Shown: piece by piece, positions 3,744 through 24,227 of the stretch
Position numbering within the stretch: position 1 is the stretch's first letter
How the letters are laid out: each line of letters starts with the position of its first letter
Virus record (IMG/VR): IMGVR_UViG_3300033149_004815
Span: 1-26,601 of that record
Origin: a virus
Strand: one strand, 5' to 3'
DNA length: 26,601 nt
Program-made: the position numbers and the translations under genes
Notes under the pieces: model-generated
Databases searched by the model: none
Seen by the model: the letters and a program-made list of their open reading frames with translations, nothing else
What the model was told of the DNA's origin: nothing

Positions 3744-5957
3744 TTAAAATAGCTTAACCCCCCTCTTCACAAGCTCCTCCACAAACGCGTCGCCCAACTC
3801 ACGGGCAACACTCCTCCTCCCAACAGACGAGCCAACATCCCCCGACACGTTAATCGTCACAGACACCTGGTTCACAGGAGCCCTCCCCGCGCCCTGCGGA
3901 GCTATGGCAACCGTCTCCCTGCCCGCCTCCCCCGCTAGGAACAGGGTTGGCCGCGTGACGGTGCCTATGAAGCCGTGCTGGGCTGGAACCACGCCAAGCT
4001 CCTCCAGGAACTCCCTGTAGTCGAAGCCTCTGAGGCTGCCATGCTTCCTGCGGTAGCTCTGCTTCGCCTCCCCTAGCGAGGGGATTTTGGGTGCAGGCTT
4101 CTCCGGCTCAGGCTCCGCTGGGGCTGGAGCCTCAACCCCCGGTGGAGCTGTGGGTGCTGGGAACTCGACGCCAAGCTCCTCCGCCGCCGACGCAACCCTC
4201 TCAAACGCAGCAGCCAGGCGGTTCATCGTGGACACCAGTATGTCTGCCTTCTCCTCGTACAGCGAGATTTTCTCGGTTAGCAAGTCGTACTCATCGGAGA
4301 TGGGGCGCATCTTGAATAGGAGTTTGCTGTGCTGGTAGGCGAGGTCGCTGTACTTCTGGTTCACCGCCTCCAAGTACTGCTGCTCCCTGTCGCTCAGCGT
4401 GGATGATGTGTCGGCCATCTGCCTGCGTTCAACCATCAGGGTGTTGAGCCTGCGCCTCTGGTCGAAGGTGAGGAAGCCCTGCCGTGCTCCGAGGAGCTCC
4501 AACTGCGCGATTTCCTCGTCGAGGGAGGCTATCTCGGCTTCGCGTTCGCGTCTAAGCATCTCCACGGCTCTGCGGGCCTCCTCGTACTCTAGGCGGGCCT
4601 CGCTCATAGCGTATTCAAGTTGGCTTAGCTTGGAGTTGTACCTGTCCAACACCTCTGCGAGGGCGAGCTGCCTCCGCCTAAGCGGCTCTAGGGCCGATGC
4701 CAGGGATTCGTAGGCTTCAACCGCTTCCCTGTTTGTCCAGGTTGACGTGTCCACAGCGTCCTCGTATCGGGTTATCTCGCCTGTGGCGTATTTTACGGCG
4801 TTGGCAACGTTCACCTGTTGGAGTTGGTACTGCCTTAGAAGCTCGTTGTACTCCTCAACCGCCTTGGCGGCTTCATAGTACTCATCCTGCTGGCGTTGAA
4901 GATCTTCAATCGCACGTGAAACCTCGCTATTAACCTCCTCCTGGTTCCTGCGAACCCTCTCAGCGGCGTCCACATAGTCAAACAGGTTCACGTAAGCCTT
5001 GTAGGTTTCGAGGCTTGCGAAGCCCATCGACTTGGCGAACTCCTCCAACTCCTCGCGGGCGCTGAGAACCGAGCCCTCGAGCTCGTCAACCGCGTCGCTG
5101 GCTCCGCGGACGGCTTCCTCAAGGTTTGACTCAGTTGGAACTCCGTAGAGGCTTTCGCGGGCAGCAGTCATCAGGCGGTTGAGGGCGTCGGCAGCGGTGT
5201 TGATCGGCTCGAAGACGATGGCCCTAGCCCACACCAGTAGCCCTGTGCCGAGGAAGTTTTTAAAGCTCTTCCAGTTGTTTATGAACTCCTTGTAGCTCTT
5301 GTTCAACGGGTCTATGACTTCGCCGCTGCGTCTAAGAGCCTCGTTTCCACGCTCCAAGGCGAGGTTTAGAACCGCCTGCTGTTTCTCCGCGTCTGTTAGC
5401 TGAGTCGCGGTTTTCCCAAGGTTCTCCGCGTAGAGCCTGTACGCCTCGCTTGTGGTGAGGGTTATGCCGAGGTTCTTAAGGTGCTCGGCGCGCATCTTGC
5501 CCACGCCGTCAATCATGAGTTGAATGCCCTCGGCGGCGGTTCGATGGGCCTCCCCGAGGAGGGCTCCGATCCTGAACATTTCCTCTAGCTCGGAGGCGGG
5601 GATTCCCCGGGCGAGGGCTTCGTTGGCGGTTCTAAGGAGGTCTACGTCGCTGACAAGCCCCATGGTGGCGTCTCTGAGGTCTTGTAGGGTTAGCGCTGTG
5701 TCTCTGGTGAAGTTGAGGAAGTTTAGGCGTAGCTGGTTGAACGAGGCGGCTACCTCCATGGAGGATATGGCTGTCTCCCCCAGTGCTCTTAGGAGTTTGG
5801 CGACTATTATGCCGGTGGTGACGCTTAGGGCTCTGCGCATGATGTAGCTCTGCTGTATGATTTTGTTCTGCTCCGACCTGAGTTTGGCTAGCTCGGTTTC
5901 CCCGTGGACCCTGACGTAGACGTCTAGGACTGCTCTGCCTATGCTTATTTCACTCAT
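3744..5957 (-). CDS. Tail tape measure protein
   Basis: A 737-residue protein that sets tail length and is threaded through the tail tube. Evidence: size; position just after the tail chaperones and before the hub; an N-terminal helical region with one hydrophobic stretch (about 45-60); long charged coiled-coil segments (about 270-620); a Pro/Ala/Glu hinge (about 620-660); and a C-terminal segment with TRPTLFLAGEAGRETVAIAP and VSVTINVSGDVG. The last pair matches the 'aGEaGpEaviPl ... itInV' ending common in phage tape measures. At the usual ~0.15 nm per residue the tail would be around 110 nm; this is inference from the length rule. ATG start overlaps the preceding stop as ATGA. No peptidase or lysozyme domain was seen. 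Confidence 0.88.
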   Translation of the reverse strand: MSEISIGRAVLDVYVRVHGETELAKLRSEQNKIIQQSYIMRRALSVTTGIIVAKLLRALGETAISSMEVAASFNQLRLNFLNFTRDTALTLQDLRDATMGLVSDVDLLRTANEALARGIPASELEEMFRIGALLGEAHRTAAEGIQLMIDGVGKMRAEHLKNLGITLTTSEAYRLYAENLGKTATQLTDAEKQQAVLNLALERGNEALRRSGEVIDPLNKSYKEFINNWKSFKNFLGTGLLVWARAIVFEPINTAADALNRLMTAARESLYGVPTESNLEEAVRGASDAVDELEGSVLSAREELEEFAKSMGFASLETYKAYVNLFDYVDAAERVRRNQEEVNSEVSRAIEDLQRQQDEYYEAAKAVEEYNELLRQYQLQQVNVANAVKYATGEITRYEDAVDTSTWTNREAVEAYESLASALEPLRRRQLALAEVLDRYNSKLSQLEYAMSEARLEYEEARRAVEMLRREREAEIASLDEEIAQLELLGARQGFLTFDQRRRLNTLMVERRQMADTSSTLSDREQQYLEAVNQKYSDLAYQHSKLLFKMRPISDEYDLLTEKISLYEEKADILVSTMNRLAAAFERVASAAEELGVEFPAPTAPPGVEAPAPAEPEPEKPAPKIPSLGEAKQSYRRKHGSLRGFDYREFLEELGVVPAQHGFIGTVTRPTLFLAGEAGRETVAIAPQGAGRAPVNQVSVTINVSGDVGSSVGRRSVARELGDAFVEELVKRGVKLF

Positions 5958-6469
5958 CTCATCACCGCCGTGGCTCTAAACCTCTTTATCCTCCTGTTCA
6001 ACCGTTTAACGGCTTTCACCCTCATCTTGTGCTTGCTCCTGTGAGCCGCAGGTATTAGGACTCCAACCGGGGCTTGATGGCTGAACCCAAACTCAATTCC
6101 ACGGACATCTCCACGTCTCCAGCTACGCGGGTTCACCAAGGCGTAGTCAACGGGCACACCTGTGTTGGGGTTAACCACGTATCCCCCAGCCGTGACGCCT
6201 CCCTTGAACACGTTTCCAACCCGTTTAACCCTGCTACGCTTAGCTCGTATGCTCCTCTTATACGCCTCAGACACGATGTAGTTGGGCTTACCCGTCGATT
6301 CAGGCGTGCCAACTGGGGCGATTTTCTTAGCCTCATCCCTCAACACCTCGTCCATCCCAGCCACAGCCCACGGGATGCTGTCGAGGAAGTGTCTGAGGAA
6401 CAGCCTCAACGCTAGGTTCGCCTTCGCCAAGTCGCCTGCGTCAGTTACAATCGTCGCAGCCATCTTCAA
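5954..6469 (-). CDS. HK97 gp10-like neck/tail completion protein (tentative)
   Basis: A 171-residue, strongly basic protein (C-terminus RRIKRFRATAVMR). It shows an outline seen in gp10-type tail completion proteins: an N-terminal helix, then DEAKKIAPVG (about 45-54), a Ser/Arg turn (SIRAKRSR), a strand block with VDYALVNP, and a late G-VLIPAAHR motif like the 'p-pfl-pA' ending of that family. Placement immediately before the tape measure is unusual, since gp10-like genes normally lie nearer the connector. The start is TTG at 6469: AGGAGG lies 5 bases upstream and the start overlaps the preceding stop as TTGA. An ATG two codons on is the alternative. Family assignment is uncertain. Confidence 0.5.
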   Translation of the reverse strand: MKMAATIVTDAGDLAKANLALRLFLRHFLDSIPWAVAGMDEVLRDEAKKIAPVGTPESTGKPNYIVSEAYKRSIRAKRSRVKRVGNVFKGGVTAGGYVVNPNTGVPVDYALVNPRSWRRGDVRGIEFGFSHQAPVGVLIPAAHRSKHKMRVKAVKRLNRRIKRFRATAVMR

Positions 6470-6672
6470 CTATTCCTCCTGAGCCACCTCTGCCCCTCCT
6501 CACTCCTAACCCAGATGTAGAAGTCCAAGCCCGCTAGAAGCCACTCCACCTGCACAGGGGTTAGCTCCCCAACCTCGGCGGGGGTTAACCCGAGCTCTCT
6601 GCAGAGGATCCAGATGTTAGCTGCTCTAGGGTTCGCCTTGAAATACTCTCTACGTGTCGCCAAGCTGGAAGT
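6466..6672 (-). CDS. Frameshift extension of the tail assembly chaperone (T-like domain)
   Basis: In the -1 frame relative to the chaperone gene, an open stretch of 68 codons begins right at the slippery heptamer (6672-6678) and ends at the TGA at 6466. It contains RREYFKANPRAANIW and LTPVQVEWLLAGLDFY, both compact helices. Independent translation could use a TTG at 6663, but the nearest GGAGGA is about 20 bases upstream of it, too far for normal initiation and better placed to stimulate frameshifting. The predicted fusion has about 205 residues (from GTG 7082). In phages the equivalent gpGT fusion binds the tape measure and tail tube subunits. Its TGA overlaps the next TTG start. The frameshift is inferred and has not been demonstrated. 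Confidence 0.6.
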   Translation of the reverse strand, partial: TSSLATRREYFKANPRAANIWILCRELGLTPAEVGELTPVQVEWLLAGLDFYIWVRSEEGQRWLRRNS

Positions 6673-7082
6673 AAAAAACGGCTCTCCTCCTGGGTTATCG
6701 ACACGGCTATGAGGTTCACCAGCCCGCTTGGAAGGTTCTCCACGGTTTCAAGGGTGATAGCGGGGTTCGCCTTGCTGAGGCATTTGTACACGTAGTGTAG
6801 GTTGAACTCGGTTCTATCCTTGTACTGCTCCAGCTCCGCGGCTTCCCTGTAGTTCAAAATGCAGTACTCCACGTAGCCGTCTGGGAACAAGCCCTCGCAG
6901 CCCTTCACGTAGACTCTGCGAACCGTGTCCGCGGCTCGAAGCACCTCTGGGAGTTGAAGCAGGTTTCGGGCTTTCTCCCTGTCAACCCGCTCCGCCTCCA
7001 TGTCCCGCTCCGCTAGCTCTAGGAGCCTTCGCCTCCGCTCCTCGTTTATCTCTTCAAGACTCTTATCTTTCTCCTCGCTCAC
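6585..7082 (-). CDS. Tail assembly chaperone, G-like (zero-frame product)
   Basis: A 165-residue protein counted from GTG 7082, chosen because GGAGGAGG lies 7 bases upstream; a TTG at 7115 would extend it by 11 residues but lacks a good site. The N-terminus is a charged helix (EEINEERRRRLLELAERD). A middle domain contains CEGLFPDGYVEYCILNYREA and LSKANPAITLETVENLPSG. It lies two genes upstream of the tape measure, where tail chaperones are found across tailed phages. A T TTT TTA slippery site at codons 136-138 would divert some ribosomes into the 6466-6672 extension, leaving a private 28-residue zero-frame tail. Chaperone identity is from position and the frameshift signal, not from a recognised family. 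Confidence 0.6.
   Translation of the reverse strand: MSEEKDKSLEEINEERRRRLLELAERDMEAERVDREKARNLLQLPEVLRAADTVRRVYVKGCEGLFPDGYVEYCILNYREAAELEQYKDRTEFNLHYVYKCLSKANPAITLETVENLPSGLVNLIAVSITQEESRFLLPAWRHVESISRRTLEQLTSGSSAESSG
6672..6678 (-). promoter_or_regulatory. Candidate programmed -1 ribosomal frameshift site (T TTT TTA)
   Basis: On the coding strand the zero-frame codons read cgT TTT TTA, an exact X XXY YYZ slippery heptamer. GGAGGAG ends 5 bases upstream, like the internal Shine-Dalgarno element that stimulates -1 slippage in bacterial dnaX. The -1 frame is open from the slip for 68 codons. No strong downstream stem-loop is obvious by eye. Confidence 0.6.
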
Positions 7083-7320
7083 GCTTCTTCCTCCTCCATT
7101 CTTGGAACTCTTCAAACTCGTCTGCCTTCACCACTCGGAGGTGGCTTGTGCTGACGGTGTTGTAGATGACTTTGAAGTCCGGGTGGTCGTTTAAATGCTT
7201 CTTAAGCCGGAGGACGTCGAGGTAGGTTCCGCTCACCACCAAGCCGATGGTGACGTTCATCTTCAAGTCCTCGTCCTCCATCAACAGCTCCCTGACACTA
7301 TACTTCCTGTAGCTCTCCAC
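7063..7320 (-). CDS. Small neck/tail-module protein, unknown function (85 aa)
   Basis: GTG start at 7320 with AGGTGG upstream, 11 bases after the previous stop. Its first half is hydrophobic and mixed alpha/beta (LKMNVTIGLVVSGTYLDVLR), followed by VIYNTVSTSHLRVVKADEF. The end is very basic (RRKKRERGER), and the last 20 bases overlap the chaperone gene, whose ribosome binding site lies inside this gene's end. The family is not recognised. The position between the putative tail terminator and the chaperones suggests a tail-tube-end or assembly factor. The tail tube gene is expected hereabouts, but this protein is too small and lacks the pattern; the tube candidate is at 16399-16794. Confidence 0.55.
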   Translation of the reverse strand: MESYRKYSVRELLMEDEDLKMNVTIGLVVSGTYLDVLRLKKHLNDHPDFKVIYNTVSTSHLRVVKADEFEEFQEWRRKKRERGER

Positions 7321-7331
7321 TCAAACACCAC

Positions 7332-7799
7332 CTATAAATGCATCATGGCTTGAACCTCAATCATCCACCTGATCAGCCGGGGAGTCCGGTTCCCAGCCTG
7401 CTCGTTCAACTGACGGCCATACGTCAATGGAATCACCAAACCCACAGGCGGGGAAAACTTATCCCTGTTGGCGTTCAACAGCCTCCACACCTCGTTCTTC
7501 ATATTCCACGCCCGCAGCTCCTGGGTGCGCGTCAAGTCGCCCCGAGGCACCCGAACCCAGATGTTCACCTGATACATGTCGGCTACGAAGGCTTTAAGGG
7601 GGCCCCCGGGCGTGTAGGGGCCGAACCACCTTGCGTCTGGGCTGAACCAGTGTGTCACCGTTACCTGGTTTTCCTGGGCCGTCGCCCTTGGGTCGTACCA
7701 CTCCACGGTGAAGGCGATCTCCGAGGCGGGTGGGTCTGCCAGAGCCCAGTTTGCTTCAATCATGTCCCGTATCTGGGTGGCGACGCTGTTAACCGCCAA
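7332..7799 (-). CDS. Putative tail terminator / head closure protein (155 aa)
   Basis: A 155-residue protein directly following the connector (TAG then TTG with no gap; GAGGTG lies about 6 bases upstream). Its layout is an N-terminal helix (SVATQIRDMIEANW), a strand block with the substrate-like line VTVTHWFSPDARWFG, then MYQVNIWVRVPRGD followed by a helix (ELRAWNMKNEVWRLL). This alpha/beta order with a 'qv-iwvr' strand before a long helix is typical of tail terminator proteins that cap the tail tube. The family call is by shape and place only; head-tail joining or stopper protein is the alternative. Confidence 0.5.
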   Translation of the reverse strand: MAVNSVATQIRDMIEANWALADPPASEIAFTVEWYDPRATAQENQVTVTHWFSPDARWFGPYTPGGPLKAFVADMYQVNIWVRVPRGDLTRTQELRAWNMKNEVWRLLNANRDKFSPPVGLVIPLTYGRQLNEQAGNRTPRLIRWMIEVQAMMHL

Positions 7800-8471
7800 C
7801 TAGCCCACCTCGATGTTGTGGAACCTGTATTTGTCGAGTATGTTTTTCTCGGCCCGTGTGATTGCCAGCGGGGTTCTGGTTAGGAGGCGTACCACTCGCT
7901 CGGACACGTTGCCGCTTTCAAGCACGGGTGTCACAACGTCTGGGAGCATTCTCCGCCGGATCATCTCTGTGAGGATGTTGGCCGACACCTGCGCGGTGAC
8001 GTAGCGGATGTCCTCTGGGTAGGTGCCGTAGCCCCATGTTCCCACGATCTCCACGTTGAGCCTGCCGGAGCTGAACACGGTGGACTCGCTTGCCAGGTGT
8101 GTCTGGTAGACCTCTACGTTGTCCACGTCCTCGGCTACGCCGTCGATTGACAGCCCTGTGATGGCTATGAGGGGGAGGGGTAGGAGCTCCGCTGGCTCGG
8201 GGTCTCCTGTGTTTGTCTCCGCCTGGTTGCTGTACACCACGGATGCGCTTCTTGAGATGAGTTGAACCCGTTTCCCCGAGCCGTCCACCAGTATGGTTCC
8301 GTGGTTCAAGTAGAAGTTGTGGCCCACATAGTTGTTAACAGCGTCTATCGCCATGGGGATGAGTGTTCCGCTTATCCAGCCCTCGTAGGCCGCGTCTGAG
8401 GCGAATCCGAGTTGCTGGTATTCAACCTGTGAAAGGGTTTTAACGTCTTCAACGTCGCAGTAGAGACTCAC
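7800..8471 (-). CDS. Head-tail connector protein (gp6-like)
   Basis: A 223-residue protein beginning at GTG 8471, which overlaps the upstream stop as GTGA with GGAGGT 6 bases ahead. The N-terminus (YCDVEDVKTLSQVEYQQLGF) then a helix with IDAVNNYVGHNFY matches the 'two-helix, then Y-G-x-x-F' opening of gp6/gp15-type adaptors that bind below the portal. It continues with strands (RVQLISRSASVVYS) and a final helical region (QVSANILTEMIRRRML). In phages this ring bridges portal and tail. It is separated from the capsid genes by the sugar island, so its transcript probably starts at the island's promoter near 15010. Confidence 0.65.
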   Translation of the reverse strand: MSLYCDVEDVKTLSQVEYQQLGFASDAAYEGWISGTLIPMAIDAVNNYVGHNFYLNHGTILVDGSGKRVQLISRSASVVYSNQAETNTGDPEPAELLPLPLIAITGLSIDGVAEDVDNVEVYQTHLASESTVFSSGRLNVEIVGTWGYGTYPEDIRYVTAQVSANILTEMIRRRMLPDVVTPVLESGNVSERVVRLLTRTPLAITRAEKNILDKYRFHNIEVG

Positions 8472-9391
8472 ACATACACCTCCCTGAAATCCCATTTACA
8501 GCCGTTCGCTTTGAACCACTCCACGGTTCTCCGGAGCCCCTCGTGGAATGATACCTCTGGCTCCCAGCCAGTGTGCCTGTGGAGCTTCGAGTAGTCGCAT
8601 AGAAGCGTGTCCACGTCGAACGGCCTCAAACGGCTCTCGTCGACAACTATGTTAACACGCTCCCCCGGCCGCATAATCTCCGCCAGCATCATGGCTATAT
8701 TCTCCACGCTCCACGCAACCCCGCTTCCACAGTTCACCACCTCACCCATAAGCGTCTGGCACTCCAACACATCCACAATCGCCCTAGCGCTGTCCTCAAC
8801 GTAGGTGAAGTCCCGCTCAGCGTAGATGTTGCCAAGGTGAAGCGTGGAGCCATTGTTCAACTGCTCGATTATCTCCGGTATCACATACCTCCACGTCTCT
8901 TTCGGACCGAAACTGTTGTAGAGCCGAATCACCGTGGCGTCCAACCCGTAGTCCTTGTGGAAGGTTCTGCAAAGCGCGTCCCCAGCGTATTTGGAGACCG
9001 CGTAGGTGCTGTGGGGGTTGATGGGGTGGCTCTCATCCATCGGCTTGTCGGGGTCTTGGTTGGACCCGTAGACCTCGCTCGTGCTTATGTAGACTGTTCT
9101 GGTGTTGTGTTTCGCGGCGGCTTTCAACACGTTGAGGGTGCCGTTTGCGTTTATCTCGAAAAACTCTTTGGGGTGGGCGTAGCCGAACGGTATGTATGGG
9201 TTTGCCGCCATGTGGATGCAGGCGTCAACCGTCGCCATGTACGCCTCCACCATGCGGCTGTTCCTCACGTCTTGGGATGGGGACACGTAGATGTCGTACA
9301 CTATTGGCTCGTAGCCGCGGCGGAGAAGCTCCTCAACCACGTGGCTCCCTATGAATCCCGCCCCCCCGGTTACGAGGACTCTTTCACCCAT
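8468..9391 (-). CDS. NDP-sugar epimerase/dehydratase (extended SDR family)
   Basis: A 307-residue enzyme, a full-length extended short-chain dehydrogenase. GGAGFIG (9-15) binds NAD(P), STSEVYG (103-109) holds the catalytic Ser/Thr-Glu, and Y130-x3-K134 (YAVSK) is the catalytic pair. The Ser-Glu in STSEVYG is as in 4,6-dehydratases (LegB type) and UDP-xylose synthase types, so a 4-keto sugar product is plausible; a 4-epimerase remains possible. The next step would suit the adjacent DegT aminotransferase, whose end it overlaps by 8 bases. ATG start at 9391. The substrate cannot be told from sequence. It is the last gene of the sugar island before the connector. Confidence 0.88.
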   Translation of the reverse strand: MGERVLVTGGAGFIGSHVVEELLRRGYEPIVYDIYVSPSQDVRNSRMVEAYMATVDACIHMAANPYIPFGYAHPKEFFEINANGTLNVLKAAAKHNTRTVYISTSEVYGSNQDPDKPMDESHPINPHSTYAVSKYAGDALCRTFHKDYGLDATVIRLYNSFGPKETWRYVIPEIIEQLNNGSTLHLGNIYAERDFTYVEDSARAIVDVLECQTLMGEVVNCGSGVAWSVENIAMMLAEIMRPGERVNIVVDESRLRPFDVDTLLCDYSKLHRHTGWEPEVSFHEGLRRTVEWFKANGCKWDFREVYV

Positions 9392-10424
9392 CTGCCACCC
9401 ACTCCTTAACCGCGTCGCACACGTAAAGCGCCTCCTCCACAGTCATCGTGTTGTATATGGGGAGAAAAACCGTGTGGGTGCTCAGCCACCAGGCGTCCTC
9501 GCACCAGTTAACCATGGGAACCCAGCCTAGACGGGTTTCCACGCCCCTCCGGCTAAGCCAGTCGGCGAGGCCCTCTGGGTCGCGCACGTAGACTGGGAAA
9601 AGAGTGTTGGCGTGAACCGCCACATAGTCCTCGACTCTCTGGAACCCTACCAAGCCCTCCAACTCCTCCCTATACGTGGATGCTATTCTCCCCCGGTTCT
9701 CAAGGTATTTCTCTAGCTTTCTGAGTTGAACCCTGCCCACCGCGGCGTTTATGTCAAGAGGCTTGAAGTTGAAGCCCCTTGTGATTGGCTCCCACCGTTT
9801 AAGCGGGTTAAGCCCCTGGTTGCGGACCGCTCTGAGCATGTCGGCGAGCATCACGTCGTCTGTGGAGGCGCATCCGCCTTCAATCGTGGTGATGGTTTTA
9901 GCCACGTGGAAGCTGTAGCAGACGATTCTATCCCAGAACGTGTTACTCGGGTTCTTCACCCTGGCTCCGAACGCCTCAGCGGCGTCCTCGACAACCCTCT
10001 TCGCATCCTTCCACAGTTGCTGGTCCAGGGGGTGCCCCGCGTAGTGTATCGGGACAACTACCCCTCCATATTTCCCCGCCTCCTCGCGGAGAAGCAGACC
10101 AGTGTCCCTATCAACGGAGCCGTAGCGTATATCTTTAACTCCCGCGGCTCTGACGGCGTTTATCGTGGCGTAGAAAGAGTAGGTTGGGATGGTTGCGGGT
10201 TCTCCGTCGAAGCCGTCGAGGGCTATTATGGCTGCTGTTATGGCTGAGGTTCCGCTGTTCATAAACACGTTGTAGCGGAGCCCCGTCACCTCCGCCAACT
10301 CGCGCTCGAACGCCTCGGTTTCACGCCCCATGGTCAGCCACCCTGAGTCTAGGACTCGCTGGACTGCTTTCTTCTCTTCCTCGCCCCAGTCGGGTTTGCT
10401 CCAAGGTATCTTCAACTTTCTCAC
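9384..10424 (-). CDS. DegT/DnrJ/EryC1-type sugar aminotransferase
   Basis: A 346-residue PLP enzyme of the DegT family that puts an amino group on a 4-keto (or 3-keto) NDP-sugar. NSGTSA (56-61) binds the cofactor phosphate, EDAAEAFGA (146-154) holds the Asp that contacts the pyridine nitrogen, and K176 in SFHVAKTITTIEGG is the Schiff-base lysine. The start is GTG 10424, overlapping the upstream stop as GTGA; a longer reading from 10562 would run 142 bases into the neighbouring gene and is rejected. It pairs with the dehydratase downstream and the beta-helix acyltransferase at 11465-12142, consistent with a pathway to an N-acylated amino sugar (PglF-E-D or LegB-C-H logic). The exact sugar is unknown. 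Confidence 0.9.
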   Translation of the reverse strand: MRKLKIPWSKPDWGEEEKKAVQRVLDSGWLTMGRETEAFERELAEVTGLRYNVFMNSGTSAITAAIIALDGFDGEPATIPTYSFYATINAVRAAGVKDIRYGSVDRDTGLLLREEAGKYGGVVVPIHYAGHPLDQQLWKDAKRVVEDAAEAFGARVKNPSNTFWDRIVCYSFHVAKTITTIEGGCASTDDVMLADMLRAVRNQGLNPLKRWEPITRGFNFKPLDINAAVGRVQLRKLEKYLENRGRIASTYREELEGLVGFQRVEDYVAVHANTLFPVYVRDPEGLADWLSRRGVETRLGWVPMVNWCEDAWWLSTHTVFLPIYNTMTVEEALYVCDAVKEWVADG

Positions 10425-11155
10425 TCCTCTAGCTCCAGCCACGGCACCCGCCTCAGAACGGGGTGTCTGCGGCTCCGAGTTGGGTGGCCGTACGTGTTTA
10501 GCTCTCCTATGAGTTCGCCGTGGTCGGCTGTGACTGTGAAGCCTCCGTCGCAGTAGAGCCACTCGGCGTCAAGTATTTGGCGTAGTGCTTGTCGGGCGCT
10601 GTCCGTGTAGAGCTTCCGCAGGTAGCTCCACCCGTTTTTGTTTCCATAGTTGGTTAAGGCGTTCACCACCCCGTCTGAGACAGGTGTTTTAAGCCGCTCT
10701 AGGAACCGTAGCCCTTCCTCGGTTACGTAGGGGAGGTGTGGGGGGATGGTGTGTATTAGGAGTCGGCAGTCGCCCCCGTACTCGGATGAGATGGCCAGTG
10801 CTTCGCCCAGCACCTCGGTGTTGCCTAGGATGCCTCTCCACGAGTTTCCCCACGTGTTCACGGTTCTCCATTTTCTCCACAGCCCTATGGCCCGCCGTAG
10901 CCGTGGAAGCAGGCGTCTGTAGTGGGGCTTCCAGTAGACGGGTGTGTTTGACACCAATACGGCGTCGTCGAAGACCCCTGCGTTGAACGTGTTGTTGATC
11001 CAGACGCCTGTGTCGCACCCCGCGCTCCAAACCTCTCGGAGCCTTCCTGGGCATCCCTCTTCCTCCCAGAGCTGTTTGAAGACGTCGAACCTGAAGGCGT
11101 CCATGACGACGATTTTCCTCCAGTCTCCTCGCAACAGGTCTAGCTGGTTCTCCAA
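10421..11155 (-). CDS. Alkaline-phosphatase/sulfatase superfamily enzyme
   Basis: A 244-residue protein with hallmarks of the alkaline phosphatase superfamily. IVVMDAFRFDVF carries an early metal-binding Asp (D19); SAGCDTGVW has a likely nucleophile Thr (T49); TVTADHGELIGE, near residue 210, carries the Asp-His pair; and a later YGHP His is followed by a VPWL ending. This pattern occurs in short archaeal sulfatase-like proteins found in glycan gene clusters. It may add or remove phosphate or sulfate groups on a glycan, or transfer a phospho-group. TTG start at 11155 with GGAGG 7 bases upstream. It is smaller than classical sulfatases (about 450-550 residues). No signal peptide or membrane segment is visible, so it probably acts in the cytoplasm. 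Confidence 0.72.
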   Translation of the reverse strand: MENQLDLLRGDWRKIVVMDAFRFDVFKQLWEEEGCPGRLREVWSAGCDTGVWINNTFNAGVFDDAVLVSNTPVYWKPHYRRLLPRLRRAIGLWRKWRTVNTWGNSWRGILGNTEVLGEALAISSEYGGDCRLLIHTIPPHLPYVTEEGLRFLERLKTPVSDGVVNALTNYGNKNGWSYLRKLYTDSARQALRQILDAEWLYCDGGFTVTADHGELIGELNTYGHPTRSRRHPVLRRVPWLELEE

Positions 11156-11159
11156 GCCT

Positions 11160-11468
11160 CTACCTCCATTTCTCGGATTCCACCTCTATGTTGCTGGGGA
11201 GGTTTATCGCGGGGTATTTGGTGCCTGGGCCGACAGCAGTGTAGCCGAGGGCTTCAAGGTATCTGACTTTGTCTACGAGCTTCTTGAACCTGTTGTGGTT
11301 GAACACGGTTATGAACTCCAGCCGCTCTAGGCTTATGCCGTTTATGGTTCGCTTCCGCTTCGCCTCCTCCAAGTCCTCCTCGCTCACCGCGATGGAGCTA
11401 ACCATGTGTAGCTGGTACAGCTTCCTAGCCCTGTCCTCCACCACGTGGAACCCCATATACACCTTCAT
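11160..11468 (-). CDS. Small unknown protein in sugar island (102 aa)
   Basis: ATG start at 11468 overlaps the acyltransferase stop as ATGA, with GGAGAAGGGG just upstream; a longer start at 11495 would overlap without a ribosome binding site. The protein is mixed alpha/beta. Strand-like KVYMGFHVVEDRARKL is followed by a helix (EEDLEEAKRKR), strand ERLEFITVFNHN, helix FKKLVDKVRYLEALGYTAVG and a short tail. No family was recognised. Its place between sugar enzymes, with stop-start coupling on one side, suggests a role in the same glycan pathway, but nothing in the sequence shows it. Confidence 0.55.
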   Translation of the reverse strand: MKVYMGFHVVEDRARKLYQLHMVSSIAVSEEDLEEAKRKRTINGISLERLEFITVFNHNRFKKLVDKVRYLEALGYTAVGPGTKYPAINLPSNIEVESEKWR

Positions 11469-12142
11469 GTTTCCCCTTCTCCAAACCTGTTCCACGGCTC
11501 AACCTCGCTGAACTTCGGGTTGTGGTGCGCTGGGTTCCCAGCGACAACCGTGTTCTCCGGCACATCCCTGACAACCACCGCCCCCAAGCCGATGACGGCT
11601 CCGTCGCCAATCGTCAGGTTCGGGGCGACTGAGGCTCCCTGCCCTATGAACACGCCTCTGCCAACGGTGACTCCTCCGCAGAGGCTCACCCTACCAGTGA
11701 CTATGCTGTAGTCCCCTATCTCAACGTCGTGCTCCACGTTGCAGAGGTTGCCGATGTCCACGTGGTCGCCTATCACGGCTCTGCTGCACACCACGGCGTT
11801 GGGCCTGATAACCACGTCCACTCCAAGCCTCTTCGGGTTGGTCACCACCGCAGACTCGTGTATCAGGACTCCCCACCAGTAGCCCACCCCTGCGTCCCTG
11901 CAAGCCTGCTCGAACATCCTGACCTTCAGGCGTTTGTCCCGTGGCTCCCCGATGAAGCTGTGGGCGAAGAGGTTCCCCGTTTTCAACACCTTGTCGGACA
12001 CTGGTTTGCCCTGCTTGGCCTCTCCCACGTACATCGGCTCCTCGAAGAACTGCACCACCTCGTCCCACAGGTTGAATGTGTGACACGTGTGGCTAGCCTT
12101 CCTGCCCGCGCCTATGATGACTCTGCTAACAACGCTCTTCAT
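11465..12142 (-). CDS. Left-handed beta-helix acyltransferase (sugar N/O-acetyltransferase type)
   Basis: A 225-residue protein. The N-terminal ~70 residues form a small alpha/beta domain, and from about 90 onward hexapeptide repeats of the [LIV]-G-x4 type build a left-handed beta-helix (for example VIGDHVDIG, VEIGDYSIVTG, LTIGDGAVIGLGAVV). The ending VPENTVVAGNPAH is the standard close of acetyl-CoA-dependent sugar acetyltransferases; the His in VEHDVEIGD is a catalytic candidate, as in PglD/NeuD-type enzymes. It probably acetylates the amino sugar made by the adjacent aminotransferase. ATG start overlaps the glycosyltransferase stop as ATGA. The acyl donor and acceptor are not defined. Confidence 0.85.
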   Translation of the reverse strand: MKSVVSRVIIGAGRKASHTCHTFNLWDEVVQFFEEPMYVGEAKQGKPVSDKVLKTGNLFAHSFIGEPRDKRLKVRMFEQACRDAGVGYWWGVLIHESAVVTNPKRLGVDVVIRPNAVVCSRAVIGDHVDIGNLCNVEHDVEIGDYSIVTGRVSLCGGVTVGRGVFIGQGASVAPNLTIGDGAVIGLGAVVVRDVPENTVVAGNPAHHNPKFSEVEPWNRFGEGET

Positions 12143-12969
12143 CCCCTTGTAAGCCTCCCGTAGACGTAGAGTTGAACCATGTCCCCGTAGAGCTCCTCCG
12201 GCTCAACCACTCTACCAGAGTCAGTTATGAATGGAGGCGGCTTGAACCCAGGGTTATAGTACTTGCTCCCAGGGACGTATTCCAAGGCGTGGTGTAGCTC
12301 CCCGAGCCGCGTGAGGTCTGCGTGCCATATCTCGATCCCCGGGTCTGCCCACACCTCGTAGCCCTTCTCCCGCGAGTCGTTGCAGAACTGCATGTGGGGG
12401 TAGGGGTCGCGGTAAGCCGTCTCCAAGAGTGTTTCCCGCTCCACTAGGAAGGCGGTTCCCACGCTGTCGAGCCGTAGGGGTTCCCCGTTGTTGCGCGGGG
12501 GGTTGAACGGGTGGAACCTGTAGCCGTTGAGCCTGTAGACGAATGTGTCGTAGAACATTTTCCCGGGGGCGTGGTATTTGACGTATGGGTAGGGTGCCAC
12601 GATGTTTTTACCGTGTTTCAGGAGCCTTCTAACCGTGTTCTTGGGGGCGTCGATGACGTCGCTGTCCCACATCAACACGTGGGTTTCATCGCCGTCTCGG
12701 AGGATTTTCCTGAAGTCGTTGTATATGAACGCTATTTCGGCGCTTGTGTGGACTCTGTGAGGAGGCTTCGGGCTGGCGTATACTTCAACCTGCTTCGGCG
12801 AGGACTCCGCCCACTTCCTGAGTATGAGGAAGGACTTGTCCGTGCTACGCGTCTCGAAGCTCACCACGACTCTGGCGACCTCTTTGAAGCGTTCAAGCAC
12901 CTCGATGGTTTTGGGGAGCCACGGCTCAGCGTTCTTCACAGGCATGAAGGCGACTACTCTGGTCTTCAA
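12139..12969 (-). CDS. Glycosyltransferase, GT-A fold (GT2-like)
   Basis: A 276-residue enzyme counted from TTG 12969, which overlaps the upstream stop as TTGA with GGAGG 5 bases ahead; the longer reading from 13044 is not supported. An N-terminal VVAFMPVKNAEPWLPKTIEVL is the nucleotide-sugar-binding opening of GT-A enzymes, and MWDSDVID (100-107) has the DxD metal-binding motif. Later residues (RLDSVGTAFLVERETL) fit the acceptor side. It lacks membrane helices, so it probably adds a sugar to a soluble or membrane-tethered acceptor from the cytoplasm. It is the second glycosyltransferase in the island, after the fusion protein. Linkage and sugar are unknown. Confidence 0.8.
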   Translation of the reverse strand: MKTRVVAFMPVKNAEPWLPKTIEVLERFKEVARVVVSFETRSTDKSFLILRKWAESSPKQVEVYASPKPPHRVHTSAEIAFIYNDFRKILRDGDETHVLMWDSDVIDAPKNTVRRLLKHGKNIVAPYPYVKYHAPGKMFYDTFVYRLNGYRFHPFNPPRNNGEPLRLDSVGTAFLVERETLLETAYRDPYPHMQFCNDSREKGYEVWADPGIEIWHADLTRLGELHHALEYVPGSKYYNPGFKPPPFITDSGRVVEPEELYGDMVQLYVYGRLTRG

Positions 12970-14966
12970 ATCAGCCTCCTCCCCCGCGGAGACTCGTCGC
13001 TCGGGTTGATGTCCTCCCTGAGCATCTCTATGAGGTTCACCCACAGGGGGACAACCACGTTGTCCCAGTCATACTGCTCGGCGAAGTCGCGGCTCTTCTC
13101 TCCGAGGCTTTTAACCTTGTCAGGGTTGTTGTAAGCGTCCTCATACGCCTTGGCGATTTCCCACTCGTCGGGTATGAACTGGTTGCTCAGCAACGTCGTA
13201 GGCTCCCACGTCTTAGGCTCCACGATCCAGCCCTTCCCCTCAACGAGCTCCACCATGCTGGTGCTCCTCGTCGCAACCACGGGCACCCCGCAGCTCTCAG
13301 CCTCTATGATGGGGATGCCGAAGCCCTCGTTTCGGCTCGCCATGGTTAGAACGTCGAAGCACTGGTACATCTTCGCCATGTTCCTCTCACTCACCCCGCC
13401 GTACATGTAGAAGGGGTGGGTGTACTTGATGTACCGTGAAACCCCCACTAGGTTGGCGTAGTGGTCGAGGTGGTACGCCCCGGGGAACCTGGGGTTGGTG
13501 TGCCAGAAAACCCTTGTGTCCCGCTTGGCGTCGGGGTTCTGCTCGAAGAAGATTTTGAGGGCGACGAGCTCCCTGTCGAACCCCTTCCGCAGAGTGTCCT
13601 TGTTGCTCGCCACCTTGCCGATGATGAAGTCGTCCACGCTCCACTCGGCCGGCTCAGGTGTAAGCGGGACGCTTATCTTGTCTATGAGCCACCGCCTCTG
13701 CTCCTCACGGCTATCCACGGGGACGTAGGTCTTGGTGTCGACTCCGTGGGGGATGTAGCTTGCGTTCACCCCGTTCAGCTGAAGCTGCTTCAACCCGAAC
13801 TTGCTCATAGCCACGCAGTGGTAAGCCTGCTTCGCCTGGTTGAGGATGGGGACTGGGATTGGGTCGTGGTCGATTGGGATTATGGGCACCCACCGCGGGT
13901 GGAGCTTGGCGAACCAGTCTTTCTCACCCCTGTAGAGAGGGCTGTCCCCTATCCAGACGTCGAAGAGTGTGACCATGATGTCGGGCTTCCAGTTGCGGCA
14001 GATTAGCTCGGCGGCGTCTATGCCGAACTGGTCGAACGCCTTGGGGAAAACCTTAAGCCCGTTCATGTTGATGGCGGCGCCCTCTAAGCCGTAGAATGCG
14101 AGGCACGCCACGTCGTAGTGTTTGTTCAACGGGTAGACGACGTGTTTGGTTCCCACGCCGTACCCTGTTCCGACGAAGGGGGCGTTGCTCCACCACAGTA
14201 TTTTGAAGTCCTTGCCCCTGGGCTTGATGTCCGCGGCTGGGACGTGTTTCACCGGCACCCGTTTAAGGGTTTCCCTTTTGAAGTATGCTGTGAGGCTGTG
14301 GTCGTGTCCATCCGCCCAGAGGGAGTCGTCGCTCGTGGTTGGGGACAGGTGCTCCCTGACGTCAACCGGCTCGAACCCCCTCTCCAGGAAGCGTTGAATC
14401 CACCAAACCTTGCTGTAGACGCTGAAATGGGTTTTATCCTGCCCGTCGGACATGTCGGGGTGCTCGTCGTCAGGGTTTATCGGGACGTTTATGACAACCC
14501 AGTCCGCAACCCTGCACGCCTCGCTTATAGCCTTGTAGAGGTCGGGGACACGGATATGCTCGAAGATGTCCAGCGCGACGGCGAGTGTGAACTCCCTGTC
14601 CCCCCACTTGGAGAGGTCACAGACATCCCCACAGTAAACATAGTCCTCATAGCCCTCCGCACAGTTCTCCACCGCCCACTCGCTCAGGTCTACGCCAACC
14701 GCGTGGACACCAGCCTCGTGGAAAGCCTGAACCATGTAGCCCCTGGCGCACCCGAGGACGATGGCTGACTCTAGCTTCGGGATGCTGTTCAAGAAAACCC
14801 TAACCGTGGCTCTGTCCCGTTCGAGGTACCTCTCATCGTAGGGTATGAAGCTGCCTACTCCGTAGTTGCTTCCCTCGCCCCTGAGAAAATAGCCCTCGCC
14901 GTAGAACTCTTTCGGCGCAGAGCCCTTGAAAACCTTGCTACTACTACGCTTAACCAGACTACGCAT
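12966..14966 (-). CDS. Methyltransferase-glycosyltransferase fusion (class I SAM MTase + GT4-like)
   Basis: A 666-residue two-domain protein. Residues ~20-230 form a class I SAM methyltransferase: VLGCARGYM (70-78) is the SAM-binding loop, GVDLSEWAV (91-99) has the acidic residue that holds the ribose, and ALDIFEHI (131-138) is a motif near the catalytic site. After a linker (~230-250) a GT-B glycosyltransferase follows, ending with the GT4 E-x7-E signature NEGFGIPIIEAESCGVPVV (E547 and E555). It probably makes a glycan and O-methylates a sugar in it. It is first in the island, ~95 bases after the capsid gene terminator, with a TATA box at 15008-15015. GGAGG abuts the ATG with no spacing, so the exact start is uncertain. 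Confidence 0.85.
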   Translation of the reverse strand: MRSLVKRSSSKVFKGSAPKEFYGEGYFLRGEGSNYGVGSFIPYDERYLERDRATVRVFLNSIPKLESAIVLGCARGYMVQAFHEAGVHAVGVDLSEWAVENCAEGYEDYVYCGDVCDLSKWGDREFTLAVALDIFEHIRVPDLYKAISEACRVADWVVINVPINPDDEHPDMSDGQDKTHFSVYSKVWWIQRFLERGFEPVDVREHLSPTTSDDSLWADGHDHSLTAYFKRETLKRVPVKHVPAADIKPRGKDFKILWWSNAPFVGTGYGVGTKHVVYPLNKHYDVACLAFYGLEGAAINMNGLKVFPKAFDQFGIDAAELICRNWKPDIMVTLFDVWIGDSPLYRGEKDWFAKLHPRWVPIIPIDHDPIPVPILNQAKQAYHCVAMSKFGLKQLQLNGVNASYIPHGVDTKTYVPVDSREEQRRWLIDKISVPLTPEPAEWSVDDFIIGKVASNKDTLRKGFDRELVALKIFFEQNPDAKRDTRVFWHTNPRFPGAYHLDHYANLVGVSRYIKYTHPFYMYGGVSERNMAKMYQCFDVLTMASRNEGFGIPIIEAESCGVPVVATRSTSMVELVEGKGWIVEPKTWEPTTLLSNQFIPDEWEIAKAYEDAYNNPDKVKSLGEKSRDFAEQYDWDNVVVPLWVNLIEMLREDINPSDESPRGRRLI

Positions 14967-16398: not shown

Positions 16399-16794
16399 CT
16401 AGGGGGTGGACACGGCGTACATGTCGAAGGCGATTTCCTCGATTACGGCGGCCTCGCTTTCAGTCTCCATTCCGGTTATACGGTAGCTCTTGATGGCTAT
16501 GCTTCCAGCGATCTTCCCGCAACCAGCGGTTCCCCTCGGGTAAATCGTGGCGGCGTAGTCGGTGTTGTTCACCATGAAGACGTCGAGCCAGTCTCCGCAG
16601 AGGTAGGCTTTCCTCGCGACGCCCTCGTAGTTTCTCCTGCCCTTAAGTATCTGGGTTGGGTCGTAGGTGCCCATAGCCCTCCAAGGGGTTTGGCTTCTGT
16701 CTCCGCTGAACTCTATGCCGGTTAGCAGGGCTATCATAGTTCCGCCGATGCTGAGCTCGCCGACAAGTCCTTCAATCGCTTCTGTCGCACTCAT
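16399..16794 (-). CDS. Probable major tail tube protein
   Basis: A 131-residue protein with the pattern of short phage tail tube subunits. An N-terminal strand pair (GELSIGGTMIALLTGIEFSG) is followed by TPWRAMGTYDPTQILKGRRNYEG, which has the 'tp-ra-Gt-dP--i--Gr-ey-G' line typical of tube proteins, then paired strands (GSIAIKSYRITG) and a C-terminal strand with FDMYAVS. ATG start at 16794. It is followed by a T-run terminator, consistent with an abundant product. Its position, before the capsid gene and after the scaffold, is unusual: tube genes normally follow the neck genes. A head decoration protein is the main alternative. Confidence 0.55.
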   Translation of the reverse strand: MSATEAIEGLVGELSIGGTMIALLTGIEFSGDRSQTPWRAMGTYDPTQILKGRRNYEGVARKAYLCGDWLDVFMVNNTDYAATIYPRGTAGCGKIAGSIAIKSYRITGMETESEAAVIEEIAFDMYAVSTP

Positions 16795-19887: not shown

Positions 19888-21149
19888 TATAACACCTCGT
19901 CACGCGGGTCTCCCCCCTTCTCAGGTGGCTCCGGTTTCTCCGGCATGTGGATGTCGAGCCCGCTTTTCTTCAGCACCTCGTAGAACTGCTGTAGCTGTAT
20001 GAAACCGGTGTTTATCCCGGTTTGGAGGAATCGTTCGAGCTGTATTCCGCGGAACTTGGGGTTCTCGGCGTTCCACAGTATTCTGGGGACTGTTGAGAGT
20101 CCGTTGAGCTCGATTAGGGGTTTGTAGAGCCCTAGCTCTGTGCTTCGCTTCACCTGTCGCTGTATCCCGGCGATGTTGCGCTCCACGAGGTCTAGCAGCA
20201 CCTCTGCGCTTGCCTGGGTGGTTTGCCTCCAGTAGTCGAGGTCGCCTGCGAAGAGGCTTTTATAGATGAGGCGGTCGATGTACTCGATGTACTCCCAGAA
20301 CTTGACGTCTCCTTGCACTTCGACTATTTGGGCGATGCTCTCCATCTCCTCTGGGGTGAGTCTGCCGAGGAAGATGTCCTCGTCCTCGTCCCGGTTGGCG
20401 ATTGCCTCCTTCAAACTGGTTTCGTCGCGCATGGTTTTCCAGATTATGAGTGGGGCGAGCTTCCTGTCGAGGAGTTTGTCGATGGTGTGAAGCGTGTTCT
20501 GCTTGGTTCTGAGCAGGGACTCGATGGGCTTGATGATGCTCTGCCCCCGCTTGTCGTTTGCGATGTTGTAGATGCTGAACCACGCGAGGTTCTCGCCGCT
20601 TATCTCCACGGTTTTACCGTTCACACGCTGGACGATGTGGTCGATGCCATGGTACATCGCCCCGTCGCCCTCGTCGAGCACAATGTCTTTAACCGTCTTA
20701 GGGTGGATGATCCTCGCCCGGCACTTAGACGGGTACTTCTTGTAGCTTATCTCCACAGGGCAGAACCCGGCGACCAGTATGTTCCGGGTGATGTTTGGGA
20801 GCATGAAGTCGAGGTTCAACACCTCGCCAAGCTCGTCCACCAGCCGCAGCTCCTCGGGCGGCGTCTCAGGCAGCTCGCTCGGCGCGACGCCTGGCATCGT
20901 GTTGATGTAGCCCAGCCCCGTGCTGAACTCCGCCAGCATGTTCACCGCTGTGAACACGGCTCCATCCGTCTGGTACCACAAGTAGTAGCCCGACACGCCC
21001 CTTGGCCGCTGAGCAGGCTTCCGTCCGCCCAGCCCTGGGCCGGTGGAGACGCTGATGGATTTCAACGATTCGCGGGGCTCCACTGGGCCTAGGACGCGTG
21101 TGCTGAACTCCTCCAACGCGGCTATGAATCTATTCGGCTTCCTGTTCAA
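19887..21149 (-). CDS. Portal protein
   Basis: A 420-residue protein right after the terminases and small zinc ribbons, the canonical portal place and size. The N-terminal arm is followed by a mixed alpha/beta wing (GYYLWYQTDGAVFTAVNMLA; FSIYNIANDKRGQSIIKPIE) and the long stem/clip helices (LRTKQNTLHTIDKLLDRKL), then ELGLYKPLIELNG and an acidic, Pro-rich tail (MPEKPEPPEKGG). The 'rGqSii-pi-sllr-k' line is characteristic of phage portal wings. It forms the 12-fold ring that DNA enters, docks the terminase and binds the connector. TTG start at 21149 overlaps the preceding gene by 20 bases. No fused MuF domain is seen. Confidence 0.85.
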   Translation of the reverse strand: MNRKPNRFIAALEEFSTRVLGPVEPRESLKSISVSTGPGLGGRKPAQRPRGVSGYYLWYQTDGAVFTAVNMLAEFSTGLGYINTMPGVAPSELPETPPEELRLVDELGEVLNLDFMLPNITRNILVAGFCPVEISYKKYPSKCRARIIHPKTVKDIVLDEGDGAMYHGIDHIVQRVNGKTVEISGENLAWFSIYNIANDKRGQSIIKPIESLLRTKQNTLHTIDKLLDRKLAPLIIWKTMRDETSLKEAIANRDEDEDIFLGRLTPEEMESIAQIVEVQGDVKFWEYIEYIDRLIYKSLFAGDLDYWRQTTQASAEVLLDLVERNIAGIQRQVKRSTELGLYKPLIELNGLSTVPRILWNAENPKFRGIQLERFLQTGINTGFIQLQQFYEVLKKSGLDIHMPEKPEPPEKGGDPRDEVL

Positions 21150-22879: not shown

Positions 22880-23291
22880 CGTCCAAGTCCTCCCCAGGCT
22901 TCACCACCACAAGGCGGTGGACAACCTCAGCCCTAATATCGTTGCTCGACTTCCTCTCCACAACGTAGGGGAGAATCGCCACAAGGTCGCGGAGACTCGG
23001 CTCCCCGTGCTCCACCTGCTCATAGATGCGACGCTTAACCGCCTCCGCAACCTCCTCGAAGTCAACCCTGGGGAACCGCCTCAACGCCTCCCTCCGCAGC
23101 TCCGCAGCCCAGTCATACCGCACCCCGCACAGCTCCATAACCTCCCGCACCGACGGAAACCGGCCCCGCTCCTCCACGAACGCCGCGATCTTCAACAGCT
23201 TAGCCTCAGTGCTCGGAGCCCGCCCACGACGCTCCCGGTAGTCATACCACGAATCATAGCCACGGGGAACCCTACGAACCACCCCCACCAC
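22854..23291 (-). CDS. Terminase small subunit (DNA recognition)
   Basis: A 145-residue protein immediately before the large terminase and overlapping it, the usual place of the DNA-recognising small subunit. Residues about 40-72 (RFPSVREVMELCGVRYDWAAELRREALRRF) have the helix-turn-helix layout with an 'S-r-v-e-CGV' turn. A second helical part (about 75-120) would form the oligomer core, and the acidic tail (GEDLDGAEEGEEG) could contact the ATPase. A GTG at 23291 is used here; another GTG three codons on is equally possible. Its start overlaps the membrane-protein frame by 20 bases. Confidence 0.7.
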   Translation of the reverse strand: MVGVVRRVPRGYDSWYDYRERRGRAPSTEAKLLKIAAFVEERGRFPSVREVMELCGVRYDWAAELRREALRRFPRVDFEEVAEAVKRRIYEQVEHGEPSLRDLVAILPYVVERKSSNDIRAEVVHRLVVVKPGEDLDGAEEGEEG

Positions 23292-23820
23292 CCCCCCCGA
23301 ACAGCCTCAACCAAAACCCGGCAACCCCAACCAAACCCACCGCCGCACCCCGCCCCAGCACAGCCACATCCACACCCAACAACCGCAGCAAACTCAACAC
23401 ACCAACCAACAACCCCAACAAACTACCCCCCACCAACCAACCCAACAAACGCCGAGCCGCCACCCACTCAGCCCTCAACCCAGCAACCTCACCAACCAAA
23501 CCACCCCCACCCTCCACAAACAAAACACCCCTCAACCCAGCCAACTCACCGTCAACACGAACCGCAAACCGCTCAAACTCATCCCTGCCAACACACTCAA
23601 AACCCAAACCCCACACCCCCGGAAACAAGGGAAACAACAGAACAAATAAACCAACACACCCACAAATAAAAACATAACCCCACCACCCCAACACCACCCC
23701 CAACCACAAAACCCAAAAAAACAAAACAAAAACAGAAAAAACCCAAAAAAAACAAACACAAAAACCAAAAAAACAAAAAACAGACACCACAAAACCAAAA
23801 AACAAAAAAATAGACGCCAC
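23272..23820 (-). CDS. Putative membrane protein of unknown role (182 aa, N-terminus uncertain)
   Basis: An open minus-strand frame from GTG 23820 to TAG 23272, its start close to where a TATA-like ATAAAGCC (23845-23852) would place transcription, hence a leaderless candidate. Residues 1-75 are almost wholly hydrophobic, about 80-122 form charged amphipathic helices (DEFERFAVRVDGELAGLR), and about 125-148 and 158-173 are membrane-like. Coding is best supported for the C-terminal half, where only this frame stays open and carries sensible charged residues. The N-terminal half is nearly pure G/T DNA, which can encode only Phe, Leu, Cys, Trp, Val and Gly in any frame, so its hydrophobicity proves little. 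A holin-like or membrane-anchored role is possible but unproven. Confidence 0.42.
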   Translation of the reverse strand: MASIFLFFGFVVSVFCFFGFCVCFFWVFSVFVLFFWVLWLGVVLGWWGYVFICGCVGLFVLLFPLFPGVWGLGFECVGRDEFERFAVRVDGELAGLRGVLFVEGGGGLVGEVAGLRAEWVAARRLLGWLVGGSLLGLLVGVLSLLRLLGVDVAVLGRGAAVGLVGVAGFWLRLFGGGGGGGS

Positions 23821-23844
23821 GACTATTCCGCGCGTTTTGGGTTT

Positions 23845-23852
23845 GGCTTTAT
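23845..23852 (-). promoter_or_regulatory. Late-operon promoter candidate (TATA-like ATAAAGCC)
   Basis: On the minus strand ATAAAGCC sits about 26 bases before GTG 23820, with the repeat CAGCGATA overlapping its upstream edge. It would start the terminase-to-capsid transcript. Called by eye from spacing and sequence. Confidence 0.45.
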
Positions 23853-23953
23853 CGCTGTCCCCTATGGTTGGGGGTTGGGTTTGGGTTGTTGGTGGTGGTT
23901 TTCCTGGTGTGTGGGGGGTGGCGGGGGTTTGGGTGTCCTGTGCTGCAGCGATA
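23850..23953. repeat. Inverted 8-bp repeat flanking the divergent promoter (TATCGCTG / CAGCGATA)
   Basis: TATCGCTG (23850-23857) and CAGCGATA (23946-23953) are perfect inverted copies, each placed at the upstream edge of an outward-facing TATA-like box. This layout fits a shared operator or activator site for both directions. Confidence 0.5.
23869..23886 (+). repeat. 18-bp G/T direct repeat, copy 1 (TGGGGGTTGGGTTTGGGT)
   Basis: This 18-mer occurs again at 24870-24887. Both copies lie 50-70 bases upstream of near-identical early promoters (AGGCTTATATG). Possible activator site, G-quadruplex-prone tract or trace of promoter duplication. Confidence 0.55.
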
Positions 23954-23955
23954 GG

Positions 23956-23962
23956 CTTATAT
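23956..23962 (+). promoter_or_regulatory. Early promoter, TATA box CTTATAT
   Basis: AGGCTTATATGTGTG lies 38 bases before ATG 23994. It closely resembles the promoter at 24937-24943 in TATA box, the GGGGT-ATT leader and distance to the start codon. Confidence 0.65.
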
Positions 23963-23993
23963 GTGTGTGGGGTGATTATATGGGTGATAAGGC

Positions 23994-24146
23994 ATGGGGA
24001 AAGGTGTCTTAGATGGGAATCGCGGGGACCGTGTGTGTCCCCGGTGCGGGGGCGCCGCGTGGTCCCTGCTTGTTCAGGGCTCTTCCGGGCGGTTTGACAC
24101 AGTGTGGGGTGTGGATTGTCCCCGCTGTGGGGATGTAAAGCTCTAA
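23994..24146 (+). CDS. Small double-CPRCG zinc-ribbon protein (50 aa)
   Basis: A 50-codon gene behind a clear TATA box (23956-23962), with a short leader. It has two CPRCG knuckles, VCPRCGGAAW (about 14-23) and DCPRCGDVKL (about 41-50), 22 residues apart, the standard layout of a four-Cys zinc ribbon. Such proteins in archaeal viruses often act as transcription or replication regulators by binding DNA or the host machinery; that role is inference. It ends just before a T6 terminator (24158-24163), so it is likely expressed alone and early. Two other frames are open nearby but lack comparable motifs. Confidence 0.72.
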   Translation: MGKGVLDGNRGDRVCPRCGGAAWSLLVQGSSGRFDTVWGVDCPRCGDVKL

Positions 24147-24157
24147 ACCCCTCTATC

Positions 24158-24163
24158 TTTTTT
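24158..24163 (+). terminator. T-run terminator after the zinc-ribbon gene
   Basis: CTTTTTTG, 12 bases past the TAA at 24146, on the plus strand. Typical archaeal U-run stop. Confidence 0.5.
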
Positions 24164-24227
24164 GAACGTTTGTTTAGTGTTTCGCTGTTTCGCTGAACAC
24201 GGGCCTGGTTTTCGCTCCACCTCAACG

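Follow-up and report, generated by a model that had tools for sequence, protein, structure and literature searches.

A conserved candidate -1 frameshift site, T_TTT_TTR, in a predicted tail-chaperone gene of a probable archaeal virus group, with a putative +1 counterpart in related lineages

We analyzed a 26,601-nucleotide stretch of viral DNA (IMG/VR record IMGVR_UViG_3300033149_004815, positions 1 to 26,601; hereafter the window), in which two overlapping open reading frames (ORFs) on the minus strand lie 5' of the tape measure gene, the second in a different frame from the first. The first ORF, G, runs for 165 codons from a GTG (7082-7080) to a TAA (6587-6585). Its codons CGT TTT TTA contain the heptamer T_TTT_TTA in X_XXY_YYZ phase (minus-strand context CAG GAG GAG AGC CGT TTT TTA CTT), and 28 codons of G remain 3' of it. 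Read in the -1 frame from 6678, the sequence runs 70 codons without a stop, of which 68 lie past the heptamer, up to a TGA (6468-6466). This second ORF, T, stops 2 nt before the ATG of a gene resembling HK97 gp10, which separates T from the tape measure gene. A -1 shift at the heptamer would join 137 residues of G to 68 residues of T, giving a predicted GT protein of 205 residues. The gene order, namely connector proteins, a small protein, G, T, the gp10-like gene, and the tape measure gene, fits the position of G/GT genes in tailed phages. The coordinates are collected in Table 1.

An earlier note on this DNA had proposed a programmed -1 frameshift in a tail chaperone gene at this point. It reported an exact heptamer, cgT TTT TTA, at 6678-6672 in the zero frame of G, a -1 frame open for 68 codons to a TGA, and a GGAGGAG ending 5 bases 5' of the heptamer. 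Direct reading confirms all three, with AGGAGGAG ending 5 nt before the heptamer, and the length of the ~205-residue fusion that it predicted agrees with our count. The placement of G two genes before the tape measure gene, at the gpG/gpGT position, is borne out by the gene order and by matches of the tape measure protein to PHROG families. The note was also right that the heptamer is identical to the HIV site, T TTT TTA being the HIV shift site (PMC5009743).

Table 1. Features of the G-T region of the window and T ORFs of the +1 lineages.
Feature	Position	Strand	Basis
Gene G, short tail-assembly chaperone (predicted), zero-frame product of 165 residues	6585..7082	-	ORF with GTG start, GGAGG upstream; homologues in four relatives at ~30% identity
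Slippery heptamer T_TTT_TTA, in phase (CGT TTT TTA)	6672..6678	-	Direct reading; kept in L003/L004, L019, L014, L109
ORF T, -1 frame, C-terminal part of GT	6466..6678	-	Homologous -1 ORFs in four relatives, each starting FF at the heptamer
Predicted GT fusion, about 205 residues	6466..7082	-	Follows from a -1 shift at 6678-6672
AGGAGGAG, possible internal Shine-Dalgarno-like stimulator	6684..6691	-	Ends 5 nt before the heptamer; predicted anti-Shine-Dalgarno duplex -10.4 kcal/mol
HK97-gp10-like gene between T and tape measure, ATG 6463	5954..6463	-	Motif NPxTGxxVDYA kept in five relatives; named by resemblance
Tape measure protein	3744..5957	-	phrog_1535 E 2.5e-8, phrog_3779 E 1e-7; homologues in relatives
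Conserved 85-residue protein directly 5' of G, overlapping the G start	7063..7320	-	47-54% identity in five relatives
155-residue protein, probable tail terminator by position only	7332..7799	-	Syntenic in relatives
231-residue head-tail connector-like protein, named by position only	7800..8495	-	43-57% identity in seven relatives
+1 T, L005	20143-20319		TTT CGC near G stop
+1 T, L092	863-1039	-	TTT CGC near G stop
+1 T, L131	about 9478-9652		TTT CGC near G stop
+1 T, L132	about 8232-8424		TTT CGC near G stop

Relatives of the window were found through the major capsid protein (MCP; 59-76% identity), and one more through alignment of the 85-residue neighbor of G. Neither G nor the tape measure protein, used as a single-sequence query, returned any relatives. 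The same search with T returned a single contig, L002, which is short and high in GC, has the order G-T-tape measure with T in the -1 frame, and is not part of the main evidence. We read the G-T regions individually in five lineages: the window, the twins L003 and L004, L019, L014, and L109. An exact, in-phase T_TTT_TTA/G is present in all five, and in each the -1 frame is open as far as the gp10-like gene. The junctions read GAA CGT TTT TTA ATG in L004 and its twin L003, GAC CGT TTT TTG CTT in L019, AAC AGT TTT TTA TCA in L014, and GGC AGT TTT TTA TAA in L109. Identity to the window is 27-32% for G and 21-37% for T, and 0-22 codons of G remain 3' of the heptamer in the relatives. Conservation of T starts at the heptamer itself, where every -1 T begins FF. 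In L109, where TAA directly follows TTA, the heptamer cannot owe its conservation to a zero-frame tail.

The comparison with related genomes that the earlier note had suggested thus found the heptamer in phase in five lineages and the two frames fused in none. Together with the homologous T and the gene order, this conservation supports the candidate frameshift, and we conclude that the heptamer is very probably a selected -1 site at which GT is made.

Codon usage in these genomes disfavors such a site. In the window, which is 58% G+C, Phe is encoded by TTT in 23% of cases and Leu by TTA in 2.5%, and the probability of T_TTT_TTR given the residues R-F-L is 0.0042. Given the amino acids, this probability ranges from 0.004 to 0.048 per genome. 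Multiplied across the five lineages as if these were independent, the probabilities give ~3e-10, a figure that overstates the case because the lineages are related, though far apart. Whole-contig scans of G007, G009, and G012 found an in-phase T_TTT_TTR in just one ORF of 90 codons or more per contig, namely G. The window has two such sites in ORFs of at least 90 codons, the second within a TTTTTTG cluster in a low-complexity ORF (23272-24225), and TTTTTTR occurs 13 times in the window versus 3.3 times in shuffled sequences. The cluster itself holds six TTTTTTG within 96 bases on the minus strand (23714-23809).

Runs of a single base often attract indels, and in the window a single added T would be enough to join the two frames. 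An assembly indel or gene decay would nevertheless have had to split one G-T gene at the same point in five lineages from different metagenomes, none of which has the frames fused, and L109 has a stop directly 3' of the heptamer; we regard this explanation as extremely unlikely. Scarcely more probable is independent translation of G and T as two proteins, T starting at a TTG at 6663, which does appear in the ORF list of the window, or by reinitiation past the G stop. No Shine-Dalgarno-like sequence precedes 6663, the T ORFs of the -1 lineages share no start codon, and conservation of T begins at the heptamer. Chance, codon usage, an indel in the assembly, and an independent start of T all explain the site poorly.

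A different route to the same fused protein would be transcriptional slippage, in which RNA polymerase adds one U at the run of six T and ribosomes then translate the resulting 7-U mRNA into T without a shift. Slippage by polymerase is an established mode of recoding elsewhere (PMC5009743). The run here is exactly six T in all five lineages, however, and shows none of the lengthening usual for polymerase-slippage sites, and its phase, its X_XXY_YYZ form, and the purine after TTTTTT fit ribosomal slippage. We therefore consider transcriptional slippage improbable; if the heptamer is a selected site, the -1 shift is almost certainly ribosomal.

We propose that most ribosomes would read CGT TTT TTA in frame and produce G. 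A minority would step back one base at T_TTT_TTA, as tRNA-Phe and tRNA-Leu pair anew with TTT TTT, and would finish in the -1 frame to give GT (...R-F-L/F-T-S-S-L...). The purine-rich, Shine-Dalgarno-like stretch 5' of the heptamer may add to slippage. Within the region, only 9 of 673 positions are predicted to pair more strongly with the 16S tail than AGGAGGAG. The site is strong in the window and L019 and weaker in the three other -1 lineages. Because the Glu codons within it are conserved anyway, a stimulatory role for AGGAGGAG is suggestive only. The parallel with lambda gpG/gpGT suggests that the G part may bind the tape measure protein and the helical T part may recruit the tail-tube protein, and both G and GT would be absent from the finished virion. 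In predicted structures, T is all helical (predicted local distance difference test score, pLDDT, of 93, from a shallow alignment) and G combines a long helix, a beta hairpin, and a helical bundle (pLDDT 77).

Several observations weigh against this interpretation. Neither G nor T matches a Pfam or PHROG family. Fold searches with G returned no significant match (none at E <= 0.001), and tail assembly chaperones and YqbN appeared among the weak matches only. It is unusual for a gp10-like gene to separate T from the tape measure gene, and the sole major tail protein (MTP)-like gene recognized in the window (16399-16794, 131 residues) adjoins the MCP gene rather than G. No significant RNA structure was found downstream of the heptamer in the window (z -0.4 to +1.6). 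The 3' structure is likewise not significant in L004, L019, or L014, and none is conserved across the lineages; L109 alone has a structure stronger than shuffled sequences (z -3). Given the lack of significant fold or family matches, the chaperone role follows from position and the G/GT arrangement, not from sequence homology. We think it highly likely that the G and GT proteins are tail-assembly chaperones, a shade less so than that the heptamer is a selected site.

The MTP-like protein adjoins the MCP in close relatives as well as in the window, and its homologue in L132 (7082-7462, 40% identity) occupies the usual tail position before G. Given the location of that homologue, the MTP-like gene beside the MCP gene seems to have moved.

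Four related lineages, G004 (L005), G010 (L092), L131, and L132, carry T in frame +1 relative to G. TTT CGC occurs 0-2 codons before the G stop in every one of them, preceded by TCC in three, and we interpret TTT_CGC as a putative +1 frameshift site. Profile comparisons of G004 and G010 with the -1 group show that both proteins of these two lineages are homologous to their -1 counterparts (hhalign E 9e-5 for G and 1e-5 for T). Because G and T are each homologous across lineages of both directions, the G-T pair itself appears to be under selection.

In trees of the portal protein and MCP, the -1 genomes fall in two clades and the +1 genomes lie outside both or between them. A single origin of the +1 genomes is rejected by MCP on its starred branches and not by p231 or portal. 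Since the +1 group differs in its tape measure proteins as well, whole tail cassettes may have been exchanged; the other possibility is that the direction of the shift changed during descent. A TTT (Phe) codon stands at the shift point in both T_TTT_TTR and TTT_CGC, and this shared codon makes tRNA-Phe a possible common lever. Our tentative suggestion, which we hold with less than even confidence, is that the G-GT pair was kept while the direction switched between -1 and +1 within one probable archaeal virus group. In such a switch, tRNA-Phe and the modification of its anticodon loop would perhaps be the common lever, neighboring bases would set the direction, and a 3' RNA structure would be unneeded.

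The earlier note had assigned the window to an archaeal tailed virus. We find an archaeal host quite likely for the virus group, and for the window itself we infer the same. The closest phage terminase large subunit (TerL) to that of the window belongs to Halorubrum phage Hardycor1 (33% identity). One relative, G004, encodes an archaeal-type PCNA that is closest to archaeal clamps; its top matches in the PDB are archaeal entries. The MCP had no match in phage records, and an MCP scan of genome contigs found no provirus in a named archaeon and no useful host.

Elsewhere in the structural module, the capsid genes are separated from the connector genes by a same-strand block of sugar and cell-surface genes (8468-14966). 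Judging from the translations, this block encodes NAD-dependent epimerase-like, DegT-like aminotransferase, glycosyltransferase-like, methyltransferase-like, and acetyltransferase-like proteins. Inspection of L131 also showed two homing-endonuclease-like genes (7169-7930 and 8218-8916; NUMOD3-type repeats, HNH-like) flanking the 85-residue gene 5' of G. Pfam and PHROG searches with the gp10-like gene of the window gave no match. In L003, the gp10-like gene (20092-20322) is ~100 bases shorter than in its near-identical twin L004 (20195-20530), with the frame changed, which is either a real variant or an assembly error.

The arrangement at this locus has counterparts in several known systems. 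The lambda genes differ from those of the window in using another heptamer, G_GGA_AAG, and no sequence similarity was found between them; in the window, moreover, a gp10-like gene follows T. What the two have in common is a pair of short and -1-extended chaperones encoded before the tape measure gene (reviewed in PMC5009743). Phage P2 (E/E+E', T_TTT_TTG) and P2-like Burkholderia phages make the same -1 shift in tail genes that precede the one for the tape measure protein, and the heptamer of L019 is identical to theirs. No 3' hairpin was found in P2-like phages with TTTTTTG (PMC3091744). These phages are bacterial myoviruses, however, and the heptamer of the window, L004, L014, and L109 ends in TTA, not TTG.

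Among archaeal viruses, a -1 G/GT frameshift has been predicted in the haloarchaeal siphoviruses HVTV-1, HCTV-1/2/5, and Hardycor1, and a +1 frameshift in HSTV-2. For the HF1-group haloviruses, a published proposal places the +1 shift at TTT-CGC and cites parallels in eukaryotic viruses (PMC7230728). The HSTV-2 record has AAG TCC TTT CGC at the end of the short chaperone gene, resembling the TCC TTT CGC of three of our four +1 lineages. HSTV-2 and the HF1 group differ from the viruses studied here in being haloarchaeal myoviruses whose G proteins cannot be aligned with ours, and the window is of the -1 type. Alignment detected no homology of G to the chaperones of Hardycor1 or HSTV-2. In the records of two methanogen viruses, we read what seems to be an unannotated T-like ORF after a presumed G, for which we found no published description: in psiM2 (L139 13209-13778) it lies in the -1 frame with A_AAA_AAG, and in Drs3 (L138 23208-23657) in the +1 frame next to TTT_C.

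The earlier note had described such sites as less studied in archaeal viruses than in bacterial phages. Experimental proof of frameshifting in archaea is very scarce: one proven -1 case, in a cellular gene, is counted in a review from 2021. Predicted precedents do exist, however, of the -1 type in HVTV-1, HCTV-1/2/5, and Hardycor1 and of the +1 type in HSTV-2 and the HF1 group. In the literature examined, which did not include the haloviral genome papers Pietila 2013 and Sencilo 2013, the archaeal -1 sites named are G_GGA_AAN and A_AAA_AAC, and to that extent T_TTT_TTR is new for this virus group. For annotation, the analysis recovers a T that ordinary gene calling would miss and, by position and arrangement, identifies a tail chaperone for a group whose G matches no family. 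Archaeal G/GT frameshifts in both directions have thus been reported before; what is new here is T_TTT_TTR and, of greatest interest, the apparent change of direction within a group. A conserved site in deeply diverged viruses and its natural +1 counterpart in close relatives together provide matched sequences for testing slippage of archaeal ribosomes each way.
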